Program-made: the position numbers and the translations under genes
Notes under the pieces: model-generated
Told to the model about the DNA's origin: nothing
What the model saw: only the letters and a program-made list of their open reading frames with translations
The model's database searches: none
Shown here: piece after piece, positions 10,019 to 30,498 of the stretch
Numbering within the stretch: the first letter of the stretch is position 1
Layout of the letters: every line of letters begins with the position of its first letter
Assembly: GCF_000739655.1 (NCBI RefSeq)
Contig: NZ_BATR01000182.1
Span: 1-43,073, forward strand
Source of the DNA: Verrucomicrobium sp. BvORR106
Lineage (GTDB): Bacteria; Verrucomicrobiota; Verrucomicrobiia; Verrucomicrobiales; Verrucomicrobiaceae
Direction of reading: 5' to 3'
Length of the DNA: 43,073 bases

Positions 10019-10060
10019 TGATCCCTTGTCCCCCTCCCTTTCCCCTCTCTCCCTACATCC
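10019..10060 (-). repeat. Degenerate 7-bp-period tract at the 3' end of trpD
   Basis: Read on the trpD sense strand, this stretch divides into six 7-base units that are mostly GGG plus A/G (for example GGGAGAG, GGGACAA). The trpD stop codon TAG lies inside the first unit boundary. It is the least convincing of four such tracts in the window, because it is simply purine-rich and has no partner arm nearby. The period and position nevertheless match the tracts at 24141, 25151 and 29687. Confidence 0.45.
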
Positions 10061-11090
10061 AATCGTGAAGCGCCCGCAGCTTGGCGTGAGCGGCCCCACG
10101 ATCGAGGATCTCCTCAGCCATGGCACGACCTTGTTTAAGGTCGGCAGCCTTCCCGACAATGACAAAACCTGCAGCGGCGTTGAGCACCGCGAGATCCCTG
10201 CGGGCCCCCTTGATGGTCCCGGCAAGCACGCCCTCCAGCACGTTCGCGTTCTCTGACGCGACGCCCCCTTCCAGATCATTCAGATTGCCCTTGGGGAAGC
10301 CATAGTCCGCGGCAGTCATCTCGAAGTGACTGATGGTCCCATTCTCAACCTTGGCGATCGTGTTGGAGCCCAGCGTGGAGATCTCGTCCATGCCGCGGCC
10401 ATCCTCCGTCCGCCCATAGACCACCCAAGCCGCCTTGCGACCCAGCCGCTGCAGGATCTCTGCAAATACTGGCACCAGTTTTTCATCAAACACCCCCACC
10501 AGTTGGTAAGGAGGCCTCGCAGGATTCAACAAGGGGCCCAGAATATTAAAGATGCTGCGCTGCCCCTCGGCCGCCAGGAGCTTCCGGGCCTCCAACACCG
10601 CCTTGAACGCGGGATGATAGAGCTGGGCGAAGACGAAGCCGATTCCCACCTCCCTCACACAGCGGGCAAGCTCCGCGGGAGGAAGATCAATCTTGACCCC
10701 CAGCGCCTCCAGCACATCCGCTCCGCCACTCTTCCCAGTGATGCCACGGTTCCCGTGTTTGACGATCGAGACCCCGCCAGCGGCGAGGATGAACATGGCC
10801 GTGCTGGACACGTTGAAAAGATTCAGTTTATCCCCGCCCGTGCCCACGACATCCAGCATCGGCCCGGAGAGCGTGGCCGGATCGATTCCGGGAGACACGG
10901 CATGCTCCAAAAACTCATTCACAAACCCGGCAATCTCAGCAGGCTTCTCCCCTTTCTGGGCCAGAGTACGCAGAAATGACGCCTTGCAGGTGGCTTCAGG
11001 CTCCGGATCAAGGAGGAAGGCTGCAGCTTCTCTCACCTGGGCGGGCGTCAAATCGTTTCCGGCTTTCAGATGTCTCTCCAGTTCTTGCAT
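10053..11090 (-). CDS. trpD: Anthranilate phosphoribosyltransferase
   Basis: 345 residues from ATG 11090; an upstream in-frame start at 11132 would add a non-family extension. The enzyme transfers phosphoribose from PRPP to anthranilate, the second committed step of tryptophan synthesis, in the cytoplasm. The family glycine-rich PRPP motif is seen as VVGTGGDKLNLFNVSS, followed by KHGNRGITGKSGGADVLEALGV, where many relatives read SGSAD, then FVFAQLYHPA and FNILGPLLNPARP. GRGMDEIS replaces the usual DGLDE-type segment. Some departures from consensus leave room for a TrpD paralogue with another substrate. The gene stands alone here, with no other trp genes nearby. Its stop codon lies in a purine-rich heptamer tract. 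Confidence 0.87.
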   Translation of the reverse strand: MQELERHLKAGNDLTPAQVREAAAFLLDPEPEATCKASFLRTLAQKGEKPAEIAGFVNEFLEHAVSPGIDPATLSGPMLDVVGTGGDKLNLFNVSSTAMFILAAGGVSIVKHGNRGITGKSGGADVLEALGVKIDLPPAELARCVREVGIGFVFAQLYHPAFKAVLEARKLLAAEGQRSIFNILGPLLNPARPPYQLVGVFDEKLVPVFAEILQRLGRKAAWVVYGRTEDGRGMDEISTLGSNTIAKVENGTISHFEMTAADYGFPKGNLNDLEGGVASENANVLEGVLAGTIKGARRDLAVLNAAAGFVIVGKAADLKQGRAMAEEILDRGAAHAKLRALHDWM

Positions 11091-11254
11091 GCAAGAATAC
11101 TGGGACAGGGCGGAGGAGCGCTCAAGCCTCAAACATCAAACTTCACGTCATCTCTGACAGTCGTATCCTTGATGTAGATTTACCGGAGGCCTCTTGCCTT
11201 GGCGGTGAATGCACACTATGCTTCCCAAGGGCAACCTTTTTCTGTCATACCATC

Positions 11255-23370: not shown

Positions 23371-23425
23371 CCGCCGGTCAATTGACAGCTTGACGCCGGG
23401 TCCCGCCTCCTGCCATCCTAGCTCC

Positions 23426-24169
23426 ATGGCAGGAAACGTGGCCACACCACTGCCCTCCAAAAACGGGAGCGCGGCCCTCGCCGCCAACCGGAAGCATCGC
23501 CGGCACGTCCTCCGGCTGGCCGGGATCTTTTTACTGGCGATCCTGCTTTCCGGATGGGGCCCGCATTACCGTCACGACTGGCTGCTGGAGAATGCTCTGG
23601 TCCTGGTCGCCATTCCGGTGCTCTACGCGGTTTACCGGAAGCTCCCATTCTCCCGTCTCTCCTGGACGCTGGTCTGCATCTTCCTTTGCCTGCACGAACT
23701 GGGGGCTCACTACACTTACGCGAAGGTGCCGTATGATGCCTTTTTCCAGAACACGTTCGGCTTCTCACTCAACGAAGTCCTGGGTTGGCAGCGGAACAAC
23801 TTCGACCGCGTGATCCATTTCATGTACGGATTTCTCCTGGCTTACCCGATCCGCGAGATCTTCCTCTCCCTCGCCAACGCCCGCGGCTTCTGGGGGTATT
23901 TTCTTCCCCTGGACCTCACCCTGTCCACCTCCGCCTTGTTTGAACTCATCGAGTGGGCCGCGGCAGAAGTCTTCGGCGGAGACCTCGGAGCGGCTTATTT
24001 GGGCACCCAAGGGGATCCTTGGGATGCCCACAAGGACATGGCACTGGCAGCTTTGGGAGCCCTGATCGCCATGACCGTCACCGCCTTCATCAACTGGCGG
24101 TATCACCGCGACTTCGCCCGCGAGTGGGCGGAGAGTCTGCGGGTGAAGGGAAAGGGCGTTAGAAGTTAA
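23426..24169 (+). CDS. DUF2238 (YjdF-type) integral membrane protein
   Basis: 247 residues from ATG 23426; a TTG at 23390 would extend it without family support. There are about six to seven hydrophobic helices, starting at about residue 29 (LAGIFLLAILLSGWGP). Family signatures are visible: CIFLCLHELGAHYTYAKVPYD, RVIHFMYGFLLAYPIREI, STSALFELIEWAAAEVFGGD and LGTQGDPWDAHKDMALAALGALI. The function of DUF2238 is not established. The last residues (RVKGKGVRS) and the stop codon TAA are encoded by a 7-bp-period repeat tract that continues beyond the gene, so the C-terminal tail may vary between relatives. Confidence 0.9.
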   Translation: MAGNVATPLPSKNGSAALAANRKHRRHVLRLAGIFLLAILLSGWGPHYRHDWLLENALVLVAIPVLYAVYRKLPFSRLSWTLVCIFLCLHELGAHYTYAKVPYDAFFQNTFGFSLNEVLGWQRNNFDRVIHFMYGFLLAYPIREIFLSLANARGFWGYFLPLDLTLSTSALFELIEWAAAEVFGGDLGAAYLGTQGDPWDAHKDMALAALGALIAMTVTAFINWRYHRDFAREWAESLRVKGKGVRS

Positions 24170-24238
24170 GAGTTATGAGAGAAGCCAATTCACCGGCGAT
24201 TCCCTCATAACTTCTAACCCTTAACACCCAACCTTAAT
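24141..24238. repeat. Inverted heptamer-repeat hairpin between convergent DUF2238 and sucD genes
   Basis: The left arm 24141-24182 splits into six 7-base units (such as GGGTGAA, GAAGTTA, AGAGTTA). The right arm 24204-24238 splits into five (such as CTCATAA, CTTCTAA, CCCTTAA). CTCATAACTTCTAAC on the right is complementary to the GTTAGAAGTTA and GTTATGAG segments on the left, so the arms can form a long imperfect hairpin with a loop of about 20 bases. It provides the TAA stop of the DUF2238 gene and reaches the TAA stop of sucD. It may act as a bidirectional terminator. Confidence 0.7.
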
Positions 24239-25146
24239 TACAGCTTCCCCATGGCCCGGAGCAGAGTCACGGCCATGTCCGCAGGAGAGTCGGAGACGGC
24301 GATGCCACACTCAGCCAGGATCTTCTTCTTGGCGGCAGCGGTGTCATCCGCGCCACCCACGATGGCACCAGCGTGGCCCATGCGGCGTCCGGGAGGAGCG
24401 GTGGCTCCGGCGATGAAGCCGGCAATCGGCTTTTTGCAATTCTCCTTGGCCCAGCGGGCGGCCTCAGCCTCGGCCGTACCGCCGATTTCACCGATCATGA
24501 TGATGCCTTCGGTCTCTGGATCTTCGTTGAAGAGCTTCAGCACGTCGAGGTGGGAGGTCCCATTGACCGGGTCACCACCGATGCCGACGCAGGTGCTCTG
24601 GCCGTAGCCACGGGTGGTCAACTGCCAGACCGCCTCATAGGTAAGGGTGCCGGAGCGGGAAACCACGCCGATGTTGCCGCGCTTGTGGATGTAGCCCGGA
24701 GCGATGCCGATGCGGCAACCACCGTAGGATTTATCGCCGGTACCGGGAGTCACCAGACCAGGGCAGTTCGGGCCAATCAGGCGGGTCTTGCTGCCCTGCA
24801 TGACGGACTTCACCTTGATCATGTCATTGACCGGGATGCCTTCGGTGATGCACACCACGAGATCGAGGCCTGCGTCCACACCTTCCAGAATAGCTTCCGC
24901 AGCGAAGGGCGGCGGCACAAAGATCACGCTCACGGTCGCCCCGCTCTGCTTCACCGCTTCATCAACGGTGTCATAAACGGGCACCTTGTGCGTGCCGTGG
25001 TCAAACGTCTGACCACCCTTGCCTGGGGTCACCCCGGCCACGAGTTGAGTGCCATAGTCGAGCGAGGCTTTCGCGTGACGTGAACCAAAGTCGCCAGTGA
25101 TGCCCTGGACGAGAATGCGGGTGGAGGGATCGACTAAGATAGACAT
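24238..25146 (-). CDS. sucD: Succinyl-CoA ligase, alpha subunit
   Basis: 302 residues; with SucC it interconverts succinyl-CoA and succinate with NTP formation in the TCA cycle. The CoA-binding N-terminus is typical ([36 protein letters not shown]). It is followed by the ligase domain with [26 protein letters not shown] and the phosphorylated histidine H258 in [13 protein letters not shown]. It starts at ATG 25146, directly after a pyrimidine-rich heptamer tract (sense strand). Unusually, a VOC-fold gene lies between sucC and sucD on the same strand, while most bacteria have sucCD adjacent. Confidence 0.96.
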
Positions 25147-25150
25147 GAGA

Positions 25151-25180
25151 GGGATAAGGGAAAAGGGTCAAGGGATAAGG
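25151..25180. repeat. Heptamer-repeat tract between the VOC gene and sucD
   Basis: Four perfectly phased 7-base units lie on the plus strand, GGGATAA, GGGAAAA, GGGTCAA and GGGATAA, followed by GG. It is the cleanest example in the window. It occupies most of the 44-base gap and ends four bases before the sucD start, so the sucD leader RNA would carry the pyrimidine-rich complement. No Shine-Dalgarno is visible in that leader. Confidence 0.75.
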
Positions 25181-25190
25181 CCGCGCAGCA

Positions 25191-25568
25191 TTATGAGTGC
25201 CCAGCTTTACGCTTATGGATGCAGATGGAATTGCCGTCGGGATCGCTGATGAGCGCCATGTGGCAGACGGGGGATTCGAAGGGCTCAGAGTAGAACTTCA
25301 CGTCCTTGCTCTTGAGCCATTCGACGGCTTTTTCGAAGTCTTCGACTTCGAGAGCCACACCGCCGCCGTCTTTACTGGGCTTCCAGTCAGCCGCCATGTC
25401 CGTAATGGCCAGGACGTGCGGGCCGACTTCGTACTCAACCCAACCATGACCGTCGTGCTCGAATACGGAGCCGGTGGGCAGGTTGAGCACAGTCTCATAG
25501 AAGGCCCGGGCGCGGGCCAAGTCCGTCACGGCGTACCCCGTGAATGCAAACTCGGTAACCTTCAGCAT
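25191..25568 (-). CDS. VOC-family (glyoxalase-fold) protein
   Basis: 125 residues from ATG 25568, which has AAGGAA about eight bases upstream; the frame is open further but without family similarity. Two beta-alpha-beta-beta-beta modules are visible: FTGYAVTDLARARAFYETVLNLPTG with WVEYEVGPHVLAITDM, and GGGVALEVEDFEKAVEWLKSKDVKF with CHMALISDPDGNSICIHKRK. This matches the glyoxalase/bleomycin-resistance/dioxygenase superfamily. The exact reaction is unknown, and it is shorter than and unlike methylmalonyl-CoA epimerase at the N-terminal histidine motif. It lies 22 bases after sucC and 44 bases before sucD, so it is probably co-expressed with the TCA enzyme. Confidence 0.88.
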   Translation of the reverse strand: MLKVTEFAFTGYAVTDLARARAFYETVLNLPTGSVFEHDGHGWVEYEVGPHVLAITDMAADWKPSKDGGGVALEVEDFEKAVEWLKSKDVKFYSEPFESPVCHMALISDPDGNSICIHKRKAGHS

Positions 25569-25590
25569 GGTGGCGATTCCTTGGAGGGTT

Positions 25591-26778
25591 TTATGCCGCA
25601 GCGACAGCCGCGACGATCTTCTGCGCCGCATCCGTCAGGTCATCTGCGCCAGTGATGGCGAGACCACTGTTGGCGAGCGTTTCCTTGCCAGCCGCCACGT
25701 TGTTTCCTTCAAGCCGGACCACGAGCGGGAGGCTGAGGCCGGTTTCCTGGGCTGCGGCGATGATGCCGGTGGCGATGACGTTGCAGTCCATGATGCCGCC
25801 GAAGATGTTCACCAGAATGCCCTTCACGTTCGGGTCGCCCAGGATGATCTTGAAGGCCGCTGCGACCTGATCCTTGGAGGCACCACCACCCACATCGAGG
25901 AAGTTGGCAGGGTCGCCGCCGTGGAACTTGATGATGTCCATGGTGGCCATGGCCAGGCCCGCGCCGTTCACGAGACAGGCGATGTTGCCGTCCAGGCCGA
26001 TGTAGCTGAGGCCGAACTCGCTGGCCGCCACTTCACGAGGGTCTTCCTCAGAGGTGTCGCGCAGGGCCACGACGTCCTTCTGACGATACAGAGCGTTGTC
26101 GTCAAAGTTGAATTTGGCATCGAGGGCCACCACTTGGTTGTCAGTGGTGATGGCGAGGGGGTTCACCTCCACCAGGGAACAGTCGCTCTGGATGTAGAGC
26201 TTGTAGAGGGCAGTGAAGAGCTTCACGGCCTGGTTCATGAGGGCGCCGCGCAGCCCCAGGGCGGCAGCGATTTTCCGGCACTGGTAGCCCTGCAGGCCGA
26301 GCGTTGGGTGGACGAACTCCTTGATGATCTTCTCCGGGGTCTTTTCGGCCACCTCTTCGATGTTCATCCCGCCTTCGGTGCTGGCGATGATGGCGTGACG
26401 GCTGGTGCTGCGGTCGAAAAGGATGGCAAAATAATGCTCCTTGGCGATGTCCACCGACTTGGCGATGAGGACCTTGCTCACAAGTTTGCCTTCCGGTCCA
26501 GTCTGGTGGGTCACCAGGGTCTGGCCGAGCATTTTCCCGGCGATGTCCTGAGCTTCTTCCGCGGTGTTGATGACGTGCACCCCGCCTTTGAAGCCGTTGG
26601 TGAAGGTCCCCTTGCCGCGGCCACCCGCGTGCACCTGGGCCTTTACCACCAGTCCGGTTCCTCCGATTTCGCGGGCGGCCGCACCGGCCTCCTCCGCGGT
26701 GGCGGCCACTTTCCCTTGCGGGGTGGCGACTCCAAACTTCTCAAAGAGTTCCTTGGCCTGGTATTCGTGAATATTCAT
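25591..26778 (-). CDS. sucC: Succinyl-CoA ligase, beta subunit
   Basis: 395 residues with the ATP-grasp domain at the N-terminus ([36 protein letters not shown] with the nucleotide-binding GGRGKG). The metal and nucleotide site follows at [11 protein letters not shown] and [15 protein letters not shown], then the CoA-ligase C-terminal domain with [33 protein letters not shown] and [17 protein letters not shown]. Length is normal. It heads a sucC-VOC-sucD unit and diverges from the rsbW-like gene across 165 bases. NTP specificity (ATP or GTP) cannot be settled by eye. Confidence 0.96.
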
Positions 26779-27761: not shown

Positions 27762-29708
27762 GTGTTGTTCAGGCGGCTGCTTCAGGGATCTCTTCAATCG
27801 CGGTTCACGCGGCTGATCGTCATTCCTTCCGCCGCCTTTTTGCTGCTCGTACTGGGTCTGGTGACCGCCCGTATCTTCCGGAGCGCGGTGGAGCAGGCCC
27901 AGGCCGCAGCCCTGAATCTCGCCCGCATCCATGCCACGAAGCTCGATCGAGCCTTGGCTGAAGCGGCCCGCGTGCCGGACATGCACGCCCGACTGCTGGA
28001 AAGCGGTCTCATTCAAAATCAGGAGACCCTCCACCGTTACCTCACGGACGTCGTGTCCCGGACAGGGGGCATCTATGGCAGTTGCCTGGCCTTCCAGCCC
28101 AACACCTTCGCCCCCGAGGAGCGCAACTACTGCCCCTACGCCTACCGTGCGGGAGGGAAGACGGAGTTCTCCCTGCTCACGCCCCCCACCTACGATCACT
28201 TTCTCTGGGACTGGTATCAGCAACCCAAGCGACTGGGGCACCCCATGTGGATCGAGCCCTTTTTTGACGAAGGCGGTGGCAATGTGCTCATGATCACCCG
28301 CGCGGTGCCGTTTTACCACACCAAGCCGGACGGCACGAAGGGCGACTTCAAAGGCGTCGCCACCATCGACATCTCCCTGGACCAAATCACCGCCGGGCTC
28401 AGCTCAGTGAAGGTCGGCGAAACTGGCTACGCCATGCTCCTGAGCACTGAGGGGCGCATCATCGCGTGTCCCGATGCCTCCAAGGTGATGAAGGTGCGTC
28501 TGGAAGACCTCAACCCGGTACTGGCCCACTCCATGATGCCGGGCAGCGAGGGCTTCATCAACACCTTCAACCCGCTCGACCAAAAGGAGGCCTGGGTCGC
28601 CTTTGCCCCCGTGCAGACCGCGAACTTCATGCTCGCCCTCGTTTACCCGGCAGATGAGGTGTTTCGCAACGCCTACCGGTCTTTGGGTGAAATGCTCATC
28701 ATCGTCTTCGTGGCGGTGTCAGGCCTTTTCATCAGCTTGTGGCTGGTGGCCCGCTCCGTGAGCCGCCCCGTGATCAAGCTGGCGGCAGCCGCCCGGAGAA
28801 TCGCCGGGGGCGATCTGGATCACCGGTTCAACGAAGCCGTGAACATCGATGAAGTGCATGACCTCGCGTCGGCCTTCACCAAGATGACGCGGGACCTGAA
28901 GATGCGCATGGAGGAGCTGCGTCACACCTCCGCCCTCCGCGAACGCATGGAGGGCGAGCTCAATGCCGCCCGCCGCATCCAGATGAGCATGCTGCCCAAG
29001 CAGTGGTCCGATCGGGCCGACTGGCCGGAACATGCCTCGATCGCCCTGCACGCCATCATCCAGCCCGCCCGTGAGGTGGGAGGCGACTTCTACGACTATC
29101 GTTTCCTGGATCCCGAAAGGCTCTCCATCCTCATCGGCGATGTCTCAGGCAAAGGCGTGCCCGCCGCCCTCTTCATGGCCATGACGCAGACGCTCTTCCA
29201 GGCTCATGCCAGCCCGGAACGCACGGTGTCCGGCATCATGTCCCGGGTCAATGACGCTCTGTGTGACGAGGCTCACACCGGCATGTTCGTGACCCTCCTC
29301 TACGCCGTGCTCAATGTGCGCACAGGCACGCTGGAGATCTGCAACGCTGGTCACCCCCCACCCTACCGTCTCAGCGCTGCCGGAGAACTCGACACCATCA
29401 AGAGCGACCGCAACCCCGCCCTGGGGCTGGTGCGCAATTTCGACTTCAGCACGGGCAGCTTCCAGCTCACCCCTGGCGACCGGCTCTTCTTCTACACCGA
29501 TGGCGTCACCGAGGCCTTCAACACCGCCAAGGAACTCTACACTCATCAACGCCTGGAAAACCTGCTGGTCGCCAATGCCAACCAAAGCGTGGACCAGCTC
29601 ACCCAGACCGTGATCGCGGATGTGCAACTGCACAGTCTGAACCACGAGGCCTCCGATGACTTGACCGTGCTGGCCGTCGGGTACGTGGGGAGAAAGGAGA
29701 AGGGTTAG
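27762..29708 (+). CDS. Membrane-bound PP2C (SpoIIE/RsbU-type) phosphatase with extracellular Cache sensor and HAMP
   Basis: 648 residues starting at GTG 27762. TM1 is at about residues 20-42 (IPSAAFLLLVLGLVTARIF). A large extracytoplasmic double-Cache-like sensor follows (GGIYGSCLAFQPNTF, NVLMITRAVPFYH, KGVATIDISLDQI, GYAMLLSTEGRII). TM2 is near 310-330 (LIIVFVAVSGLFISLWLVA), then a HAMP linker (RRIAGGDLDHRFNEAVNIDEVHDLASAF). The C-terminal SpoIIE phosphatase carries REVGGDFYDYRFLD, LIGDVSGKGVPAALFMA and SDDLTVLAVGY, the acidic metal ligands. It probably dephosphorylates the STAS protein when an external ligand is sensed. The last residues (GRKEKG) and the stop lie in a heptamer-repeat tract. 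Confidence 0.93.
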   Translation: MLFRRLLQGSLQSRFTRLIVIPSAAFLLLVLGLVTARIFRSAVEQAQAAALNLARIHATKLDRALAEAARVPDMHARLLESGLIQNQETLHRYLTDVVSRTGGIYGSCLAFQPNTFAPEERNYCPYAYRAGGKTEFSLLTPPTYDHFLWDWYQQPKRLGHPMWIEPFFDEGGGNVLMITRAVPFYHTKPDGTKGDFKGVATIDISLDQITAGLSSVKVGETGYAMLLSTEGRIIACPDASKVMKVRLEDLNPVLAHSMMPGSEGFINTFNPLDQKEAWVAFAPVQTANFMLALVYPADEVFRNAYRSLGEMLIIVFVAVSGLFISLWLVARSVSRPVIKLAAAARRIAGGDLDHRFNEAVNIDEVHDLASAFTKMTRDLKMRMEELRHTSALRERMEGELNAARRIQMSMLPKQWSDRADWPEHASIALHAIIQPAREVGGDFYDYRFLDPERLSILIGDVSGKGVPAALFMAMTQTLFQAHASPERTVSGIMSRVNDALCDEAHTGMFVTLLYAVLNVRTGTLEICNAGHPPPYRLSAAGELDTIKSDRNPALGLVRNFDFSTGSFQLTPGDRLFFYTDGVTEAFNTAKELYTHQRLENLLVANANQSVDQLTQTVIADVQLHSLNHEASDDLTVLAVGYVGRKEKG

Positions 29709-29802
29709 GAGGAAAGGGTTAGATGTTTGGTGTTATGAGCTAGCACCTCCACGATGCCGGTCCTTTCCTCATAACTCATAACCCCCACCTTCTAACCCAC
29801 CC
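29687..29802. repeat. Inverted heptamer-repeat hairpin between the PP2C and pseudouridine synthase genes
   Basis: The left arm 29687-29742 splits into eight 7-base units, including AGGGTTA twice (29701 and 29715). The right arm 29761-29802 splits into six, including CTCATAA twice in tandem (29768 and 29775) and CTTCTAA. The arms are broadly complementary (G-rich left, C-rich right). The TAG stop of the phosphatase gene lies inside the left arm, and the pseudouridine synthase ATG begins three bases after the right arm. It may be a terminator or a translation-modulating structure. Confidence 0.72.
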
Positions 29803-29805
29803 TCA

Positions 29806-30498
29806 ATGTTCCTCTCCCGACTGATTGCCAAGCACAAGGGCATGGGGAGGGCGGCCGCGATGCAGGCCATTGCGGGAAAAAGGGTGCGAGTGGAGGATCA
29901 GGTGGTGACGGATGGGCAACATGAGGTGGATCGCTTTTCCACCGTCTCGCTCGATGACACCCTGGTCCAACAGGGCGAGCAGGCCCTGTACATCATGCTG
30001 CACAAACCCGTCGGCTACCTCAGCGCCACGAGTGACCCTCAGCATCCCACGGTCATCGACCTGATCGACCACCCCGCACGGGAAACCCTGCACATTGCCG
30101 GCCGACTGGACCGCAGTTCTTCGGGCCTGCTGCTGCTGACCAACGACGGACGCTGGTCGAAACGCCTTACTGAGCCAGGGGAAAAAGTGGACAAGGTCTA
30201 TCTGGTCGAAACCGCCGAACCCATCGTGCCGGAGGCCGTGGAGCTGTTTGCCAGAGGGTTCTATTTTCACACCGAAGACCTGACCACCCTGCCTGCGGAG
30301 CTGGAGATCCTGGGAGAGCGGCTTGCGAGAGTCACTCTGCATGAAGGACGCTATCACCAGATCAAGCGCATGTTTCACCGGGTGGAGAATCGCGTCATTT
30401 CCTTGCACCGTGAAAGCATTGGATCGCTCGGGCTGTCAGACCTGCCTCCGGGAGCATGGCGGGAACTGCGACGCAATGAGACCCTCACTCCAGGTTGA
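29806..30498 (+). CDS. RsuA/RluB/E/F-family pseudouridine synthase
   Basis: 230 residues. The N-terminus is an S4 RNA-binding domain (MFLSRLIAKHKGMGRAAAMQAIAGKRVRVEDQVV). The catalytic domain contains YIMLHKPVGYLSATSDPQHPTVIDLI and the aspartate motif IAGRLDRSSSGLLLLTNDG, then VYLVETAEPI and VTLHEGRYHQIKRMFHRVENRVISLHR. It isomerises a uridine in ribosomal RNA. An RsuA-like (16S) target is suggested by the length and the lack of a long C-terminal tail, but RluE-like activity is possible. The gene begins directly after a pyrimidine-rich heptamer repeat, without a visible Shine-Dalgarno. Confidence 0.92.
   Translation: MFLSRLIAKHKGMGRAAAMQAIAGKRVRVEDQVVTDGQHEVDRFSTVSLDDTLVQQGEQALYIMLHKPVGYLSATSDPQHPTVIDLIDHPARETLHIAGRLDRSSSGLLLLTNDGRWSKRLTEPGEKVDKVYLVETAEPIVPEAVELFARGFYFHTEDLTTLPAELEILGERLARVTLHEGRYHQIKRMFHRVENRVISLHRESIGSLGLSDLPPGAWRELRRNETLTPG

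Follow-up and report, generated by a model that had tools for sequence, protein, structure and literature searches.

Intergenic heptamer arrays in Verrucomicrobium: a kept four-base core and inward-facing GTTA pairs at gene boundaries

Heptamer tracts at the gene boundaries of the window

The DNA analysed here (the window: 43,073 nucleotides of Verrucomicrobium sp. BvORR106, equal to contig C28 of an 8.69 Mb genome) carries at several of its gene boundaries arrays of degenerate 7-base units built on a four-base core, some of them paired head-on across a spacer as imperfect hairpins. One such pair (24158–24232) sits between two convergent genes, encoding a DUF2238 membrane protein (23390–24169, plus strand) and the alpha subunit of succinyl-CoA ligase (sucD; 24238–25146, minus strand). 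Its left arm is a plus-strand array of three GTTADRN units (24158–24178; GTTAGAA GTTAAGA GTTATGA) that points away from the DUF2238 gene and includes its TAA stop codon (24167–24169); a spacer of 26 nucleotides (nt) follows (24179–24204), and then an inverted, minus-strand array of four units (24205–24232; TCATAAC TTCTAAC CCTTAAC ACCCAAC, with TAAC on the plus strand and one mismatch in the last core) that adjoins the 3′ end of sucD. The second pair (29704–29802) lies between tandem plus-strand genes, the first encoding a dCache-HAMP-SpoIIE phosphatase (27762–29708) and the next an RNA pseudouridylate synthase (29806–30498). The left arm (29704–29739, plus strand) keeps the core exactly at 29704, 29718 and 29732, two weaker units being interspersed, and includes the TAG stop (29706–29708) of the phosphatase gene; beyond the spacer (29740–29767), the inverted array (29768–29802, minus strand; CTCATAA CTCATAA CCCCCAC CTTCTAA) ends 3 nt short of the first ATG (29806) of the synthase open reading frame (ORF).

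The window holds three further arrays. The first is a one-armed AGGG array (25150–25180, plus strand; AGGGATA AGGGAAA AGGGTCA AGGGATA) that points away from sucD, 3 nt separating it from the start of that gene, with a G-quadruplex motif at 25151–25174; the upstream neighbour of sucD is a glyoxalase-family gene (25191–25631, minus strand). The second is a weak, eroded and C-rich array of AGGG type (10019–10060, minus strand) that adjoins the 3′ end of a minus-strand gene (10053–11132) and has a minus-strand quadruplex motif at 10023–10053. The last is a further array of 7-base step on the plus strand (11122–11139; TCAAGCC TCAAACA TCAA). Two congeneric strains, G001 (8.6 Mb) and G003 (8,220,857 bases in one contig; sucD identity 97%), were available for comparison: both keep the arrays at 25150 and 11122, and G001 has a clear CCCTTTT-type array at the junction of the weak tract 10019–10060.

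Gene limits in the window were taken from its ORF list and gene families were assigned separately, whereas gene calls elsewhere come from a simple caller with approximate starts. An earlier, sequence-only reading of the window had described the heptamer units, their kept 7-base phase and the coordinates of the tracts just as we find them; it had also noted correctly that arms supply stop codons, as the TAA and TAG within units attest, and that genes start close to arms (the ORF starts 25146 and 29806 each lie 3 bases from one, although the simple caller placed the second at 29889). Both paired tracts fold better than dinucleotide shuffles of themselves (24140–24240, z −5.3 on the plus and −6.3 on the minus strand; 29690–29805, z −3.45 and −3.33); the one-armed tract 25150–25180 shows no such excess (z 0.57), and no Rfam model matched the window at gathering score.

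Seven-base periodicity and its core families

The sequence-only reading had proposed autocorrelation at lag 7 across intergenic DNA as a check of its claims. In a sample of ~0.95 Mb of the source genome (G000), with 523 intergenic pieces totalling 193 kb, we scored as a locus the same 4-mer occurring three times at a given lag and took 20 dinucleotide shuffles as the null. The excess extends throughout the sampled DNA and is large: 71 intergenic loci at lag 7 against 5.9 ± 2.4 in the shuffles (maximum 12), with 9, 15, 28, 15, 5, 13, 9, 5 and 21 loci at lags 5, 6, 8, 9, 10, 11, 12, 13 and 14, respectively, where shuffle means were 4.5–5.4. Lag 8 ranks second (28 loci vs. 4.75 in shuffles). Across the sample, lag-7 loci are mostly noncoding (75 vs. 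16 coding) and are contributed by several cores (GTTA, AGGG, GAAT, AGAC, CAGT, AAAC and CAAG), of which GTTA accounts for 12 noncoding arrays at lag 7 but no more than one at any of lags 5, 6 and 8–11. A heptamer family at gene boundaries, with some members paired as imperfect hairpins, is borne out. The idea of one family stands only in part: the heptamers are real, but they comprise several families with different cores plus a smaller lag-8 class, and within the window itself the two long tracts are GTTADRN arrays, whereas 25150–25180 and 10019–10060 are of AGGG type with quadruplex motifs.

That several unrelated cores have the same 7-base step would suit a purely mutational origin, in which DNA synthesis slips by 7-base steps at gene edges, the resulting arrays survive where they are tolerated, between genes, and disappear from coding and promoter DNA, and pairs and hairpins have no function. 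The underlying polymerase-step idea is that of Mrazek (2007), as cited in the available text of PMC4692102 and PMC4679880, and we regard such a by-product as a real possibility, if a somewhat doubtful one. The prevalence of unpaired arrays agrees with it, there being 6 pairs among 65 noncoding arrays (seven cores, at least three units).

Other repeats in the sample share some of these features. Degenerate repeats with an 8-base step (TTACYGAW, ACTCCATC, CGGTGCGT) occur in the L012, L051, L060, L021, C48 and C170 pieces, and when lag-8 arrays are given a direction by their excess of G over C, the gene behind tends to be the closer one (22 or 20 of 28 cases). Heptamer arrays with the AGAC core come after a GC-rich inverted repeat (e.g., CCCGCTGCGCGGG, then AGACACAAGAC; C170 33000–33460, 58290–58500 and 9110–9760, C48 31070–31400, and L018 17550–17920) and flank longer intergenic regions with small dispersed repeats common to other intergenic regions (e.g., GTAGTCCGACGGTCCCCGTCGGCT). 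There are also long, near-perfect heptamer microsatellites, namely GTTTGAA in ~23 copies (L041 7025–7187), GTTCTTG in 7 (L016 4121–4169) and CCAAGAA in 6–7 (L020 11348–11394), which differ from the degenerate GTTADRN arrays.

Polarity, placement and the kept core

One regularity concerns the direction in which paired GTTA arrays face. Whole genomes were searched for GTTANNNGTTA-N(10–40)-TAACNNNTAAC, in which GTTA and TAAC arms face inward, and for the reverse, outward order (TAAC...GTTA). All six head-on pairs among the arrays of seven cores in our own sample are inward. Among 57 related genomes, seven contain 33 distinct inward hairpins (six each in G000 and G001, five in G003, three in G004, eight in G007, one in G016 and four in G042) and none contains an outward match. 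The same bias is seen across the phylum, with 108 inward matches in 25 of 387 genomes (G000 and G001 included) and 11 outward matches in seven, both counts including overlapping matches. A three-unit version of the pattern recovered at least 119 stretches from public genomes; among the matches listed (80), the hosts include Cyanobacteria, Bacteroidota, Chloroflexota, Nitrospirota, Desulfobacterota, a Verrucomicrobiales metagenome-assembled genome and others. In 20 genomes of other phyla, for which only the inward-to-outward ratio is informative because they were chosen for having at least one inward pair, we counted 1915 inward and 539 outward matches. A single genome, G432, accounts for 440 of the latter, and the ones listed there consist mainly of GTTAAC units, which read alike in either direction. 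Leaving G432 aside, we counted 1235 inward and 99 outward matches; inward matches exceed outward ones in 19 of the 20 genomes.

The core read backward (CAAT...ATTG), which was run as a control, turned out to be common and mostly inward in the phylum (148 matches vs. 43) and is therefore not a null there; CAAT seems to be another core. The 20 genomes of other phyla show no such bias (71 inward vs. 92 outward), and ATTG inside GTTATTG units may account for part of these matches. Inward CAAT...ATTG pairs are abundant in G128 (30:0), G278 (23:2), G290 (15:0), G308 (20:0) and G384 (13:0), the lineages of which may use a CAAT core, and show a weaker bias in G185 (10:7). Another genome (G350, contigs C119 and C187) has three regular outward pairs, TAACACTTAAC-N-GTTAAGTGTTA, with a constant length of 57 bases; these are probably an element different from the heptamer arrays. 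For AGGG hairpins in the relatives, the matches were too few to speak of polarity (seven inward in six genomes and three outward in three), and the outward and some of the inward ones are not heptamer-like. Two simple causes of the GTTA polarity were also considered and set aside: purine content, which is not high in many units of other phyla (GTTATTG, for example), and the provision of stop codons in all frames, from which polarity would not follow and which the AGGG, GAAT and AGAC cores, carrying no stop, could not provide.

Placement relative to genes shows a pattern as well. The 33 GTTA hairpins lie at 10 convergent and 23 tandem junctions and at no divergent one, whereas 100 of the 523 junctions in our own sample are divergent (P = 0.0009, or 0.0026 if 28 hairpins are taken as independent). 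A stop codon lies no more than 37 nt away from 32 of the hairpins, and for the remaining one the nearest is at 119 nt. Context in other phyla was assigned from the longest ORFs: of the 80 hairpins there, 56 are tandem, nine convergent, three divergent and none intragenic, and the 12 at locus edges were set aside, leaving 3 of 68 at divergent junctions against 63 of 332 junctions overall (P = 0.0005). The 56 tandem pairs have the upstream stop at a median distance of 6 nt and the next start at ~30. For single arrays with GTTA, AGGG or GAAT cores, we took the forward strand from the pairs in our own sample and compared the distance to the gene behind with that to the gene ahead. In 27 of 32 cases the gene behind, from which the array points away, is the closer one (17 of 19 where the stop of that gene faces the array, 10 of 13 where its start does). 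This test was devised after the outcome of an orientation by G over C was known, and both are reported (see below). AGAC (11 of 14) and CAGT (5 of 5) arrays are likewise nearer the gene behind, but their strand was picked after the distances had been seen and these counts are not tests. Among all lag-7 arrays, junctions between convergent genes are enriched (24 of 68, P = 0.00009).

Such placement has been reported for G-rich repeats, and the G-rich strand of the arrays could in principle act by forming G-quadruplexes or i-motifs, an explanation already put forward for GGGNATC repeats. The motifs at 25151–25174 and 10023–10053, the four-tract motif in 8 of the 13 AGGG arrays of the sample, a placement like that described in the available text of PMC4692102, and the fact that GGG arrays obey the distance rule best (21 or 22 of 26) all speak for this. 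By contrast, the four-tract motif is found in 0 of 33 GTTA hairpins, 0 of 12 GTTA arrays and 0 of 10 GAAT arrays (at least one GGG is present in eight of the former 12 and three of the latter 10), and yet GTTA and GAAT arrays keep the placement (9 of 9 and 8 of 10 nearer the gene behind) and GTTA pairs keep their polarity, so that quadruplexes are a very improbable general explanation.

Within units, the core and the triplet behave differently. In the genus, unit position 5 is A, G or T and position 6 is G or A, with rare exceptions. We examined 24 arms of 12 hairpins at the first unit beyond the two per arm that the search pattern demands: its core is exact in 16, has one mismatch in one and two or more in seven. 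The 17 array-like units match the triplet of their neighbour at 0.29, and neighbouring triplets in the genus were also put at 0.31, in neither case above the 0.40 of random units; for the 17 units, the core identity of 0.99 is partly set by the one-mismatch cut, and the 16-to-1 split is the fairer measure. Slippage copies whole units, and would leave neighbours alike and cores decaying like triplets. Because neither similar neighbours nor equal decay of the seven positions is seen, slippage followed by decay is disfavoured in the genus, and slippage alone gives no head-on pairs of a single polarity. In other phyla, however, neighbouring units are alike (0.67 vs. 0.31), as the by-product explanation would have it, and unit duplication therefore does occur.

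At orthologous junctions, whole units have been gained and lost, and triplets changed, between sister strains, which agrees with a mutational by-product and also with the sequence-only reading, which allowed for expanding arrays. That reading had further asked whether the tracts are strictly conserved in relatives; they are not, even if little has changed in the one-armed tract at 25150. Spacers are kept in some cases (G000 and G003 at C53, G001 and G003 at C71) and differ in others (G000 as against G001 and G003 at the sucD junction, where the window spacer 24179–24204 is unlike theirs; at 29709, in spacer 29740–29767, the three strains align poorly). Three changes between G003 and G001 at the sucD junction hit the core (TAAC vs. 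CAAC), and the core is therefore not immune to change. As candidate hot spots of turnover, array junctions showed no clear difference from others (identity 0.70 vs. 0.75; 13 vs. 99 comparisons), a similarity that again sits well with a by-product.

The same junctions bear on the suggestion that the arrays are ends of mobile elements, resembling the inverted termini of miniature inverted-repeat transposable elements (MITEs). Inverted ends of fixed polarity, dispersed repeats in the long intergenic regions between arrays, and the presence of an array in only one strain in 10 of 17 compared rows would be in keeping with this; additionally, one genome (G170) has three copies of a GTTA hairpin identical even in the spacer (C1:11118, 22629 and 3059236), as would suit a copied element or a repeated neighbourhood. 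Against it, both strains carry the array in 7 of the 17 rows, the short spacers are mostly unlike each other by eye apart from orthologues, and neither a target duplication nor a clean empty site was noticed by eye in the printed junction rows, a systematic search for them not having been made. We consider MITE-like ends a remote prospect, and the label "mobile" given to the arrays by the sequence-only reading is not borne out by these rows.

A candidate boundary element and its known relatives

We favour a reading in which the arrays are transcribed boundary elements recognised by their sequence at the RNA level; the step from place to function is one that we infer, and we give this prediction a probability of roughly 0.42. 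The arrays would act in 3′ ends and intercistronic gaps, where a transcript across a GTTA pair would present GUUA units in its 5′ arm and UAAC units in its 3′ arm; some factor would read the core with a 7-nt step, in sequence rather than merely as a paired stem, and this reading would end, pause or protect the RNA. The RNA level is favoured because GTTA pairs occupy junctions at which transcription is expected and are absent from, or rare in, the gaps between divergent genes. The lag-7 excess, the polarity and placement of the arrays, the core preserved beside free triplets and the turnover of whole units all speak for the proposal. Explanations by quadruplexes, by slippage only or by a plain stem are weakened, since the placement rule holds without a quadruplex motif, the core is kept while the triplets are saturated, and the arms lack covariation.

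A number of results weigh against this proposal. In a swap test (which, like the unit counts, omits five orthologous hairpins of the 33), covariation between arms was sought as proof of a selected stem and not supported: own arms pair at −16.49 kcal/mol and swapped arms at −16.36 (P = 0.42), and the variable positions give P = 0.31 (n = 28). Shuffling the order of units favours pairing weakly (difference −0.63, standard error 0.30, 59 of 101), and the spacer, considered as a folded loop, is not clearly structured (mean z −0.24, standard error 0.15, n = 64); three hairpins were left out of the unit-order, spacer-fold and triplet/T-run sets. Neither window hairpin has a terminator-like site with a U-tract, T-runs of four follow 12.7% of 220 arm ends compared with 7.5% elsewhere, and predicted folds are weaker at array-bearing gene ends than at the remaining ones (−25.7 vs. 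−30.1 kcal/mol). The placement rule is not followed by CAAG (2 of 4), AAAC (2 of 5) or TTGA (2 of 6) arrays; when strands are oriented by G over C only, 43 of 68 (P = 0.04) or 48 of 68 (P = 0.0009) arrays comply, depending on the choice of start, a result carried by GGG arrays and not significant without them. Lag-7 arrays as a whole show no depletion at divergent junctions (10 of 68, P = 0.22), G449 departs from the polarity bias (4 inward, 5 outward), and of the 17 cases with an array in either strain among 200 orthologous junction comparisons, 10 have it in one strain only and 7 in both, at the threshold used.

Several of these points also bear on hairpins that work by stem structure alone, whether as intrinsic terminators or in the manner of repetitive extragenic palindromic (REP) sequences. 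The folds of the window (z −3.3 to −6.3) and the position at gene 3′ ends are what such hairpins would show. Canonical terminators are predicted at 50 of 385 gene ends against 13 of 385 control stretches, and array ends seldom carry a U-tract terminator as well (2 of 42 vs. 48 of 343), a difference that is not significant (P = 0.14). Contrary to a stem, the window hairpins lack the U-tract, pairing is not specific to own arms (a lack of covariation that a by-product would also share), folds at array ends are weaker, and cores remain GTTA and TAAC where other complementary sequences could pair just as well. Selection for a plain stem is disfavoured since neither complementary triplets nor cores that drift while staying paired are seen, and we hold such a stem improbable. 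On the suggestion of the sequence-only reading that the hairpins are terminators or insulators, the results are divided: position allows it, with 32 of 33 hairpins within 37 nt of a stop, and the missing U-tract, the arms that pair no better than swapped ones and the weaker predicted folds at gene ends with arrays speak against it.

What is left is sequence-specific reading or writing of a four-base core at a 7-base step. On a speculative and, we think, unlikely extension, the arrays would belong to a general bacterial boundary code of 7-nt units with kept four-base core and free triplets, laid down or read outward from the gene edge by a single factor or class of enzymes able to work with cores that differ between lineages (GTTA, CAAT, AGGG, GAAT and perhaps AGAC) and common to Verrucomicrobiota, Cyanobacteria, Bacteroidota and others; the factor might be a single-strand RNA- or DNA-binding protein with a 7-nt footprint, or repeat-adding DNA synthesis on 3′ ends. 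Heptamer repeats are a long-standing observation for which no function is generally accepted, and the fullest published study of strand rules dealt with quadruplex-forming units. The search is now narrowed to something that reads or writes a four-base core every seven bases, outward from genes, and close relatives with common junctions but differing arrays make the idea testable.

The short tandemly repeated repetitive (STRR) sequences of cyanobacteria, reportedly described by Mazel in 1990, are said to be dispersed heptameric tandem repeats in near-perfect copies, and the kinship with cyanobacterial heptamers drawn by the sequence-only reading holds. Closest in placement are the intergenic, G-quadruplex-forming heptamers of Xanthomonas and Nostoc (GGGNATC and GGGGA(C/T)T; Rehm et al. 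2015, PMC4692102). In the available text of that study, these share with our arrays a 7-base unit with conserved and free positions, a place nearer the 5′ neighbouring ORF in any orientation, convergent pairs, and length and sequence that differ between species at shared junctions; they are rare between divergent genes, where GTTA hairpins number 0 of 33 and lag-7 arrays as a whole 10 of 68 (P = 0.22). The two-armed window tracts differ from them, so far as that text describes them, in having a GTTA core without the four-tract motif, in belonging to another phylum and in their saturated neighbouring triplets. We file the GTTA tracts under the wider heptamer class only, because the quadruplex motif is present in 0 of 12 GTTA arrays as against 8 of 13 AGGG arrays.

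The core itself has a published counterpart in the TAACTGA direct repeats of Beggiatoaceae, Cyanobacteria and Bacteroidetes (MacGregor 2015, PMC4679880). As presented in the accessible portion of that paper, TAACTGA is the complement phase of GTTATCA, is intergenic like the GTTA arrays, and in the main genome is found mostly beside start codons, its TAAC on the sense strand in agreement with the polarity of our arrays; the published repeats are mostly one-armed with a single exact unit, unlike ours, and related heptamers are given as rare as direct repeats, with one inverted repeat in the Maribeggiatoa genome. The genus arrays are not of this type: their commonest triplets are AGA, TGG, GAA, TGA and GGA, TCA is absent from the 18 listed, and their pairs sit at gene ends. 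Degenerate 7-base motifs (TDNGATT or NNTGAGT) with whole-unit changes of length, as here, are also described for the P6b stem of the Nostoc trnL intron in the part available of Kaasalainen et al. (2015, PMC4476775), though inside a group I intron rather than at gene boundaries.

Searches of the open-licence literature that named Verrucomicrobia returned no paper on such repeats there. The tracts belong to a class of degenerate heptamers in intergenic DNA (STRR, GGGNATC, TAACTGA) that is already on record, though unexplained, and for which placement and convergent pairs were published in the case of G-rich heptamers (PMC4692102, in its available text) and TAACTGA arrays likewise (PMC4679880, in the portion cited above). 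New here are the host phylum, a placement rule that holds also for cores lacking a quadruplex motif, the polarity of GTTA pairs measured across phyla, and the contrast between a kept core and free triplets.

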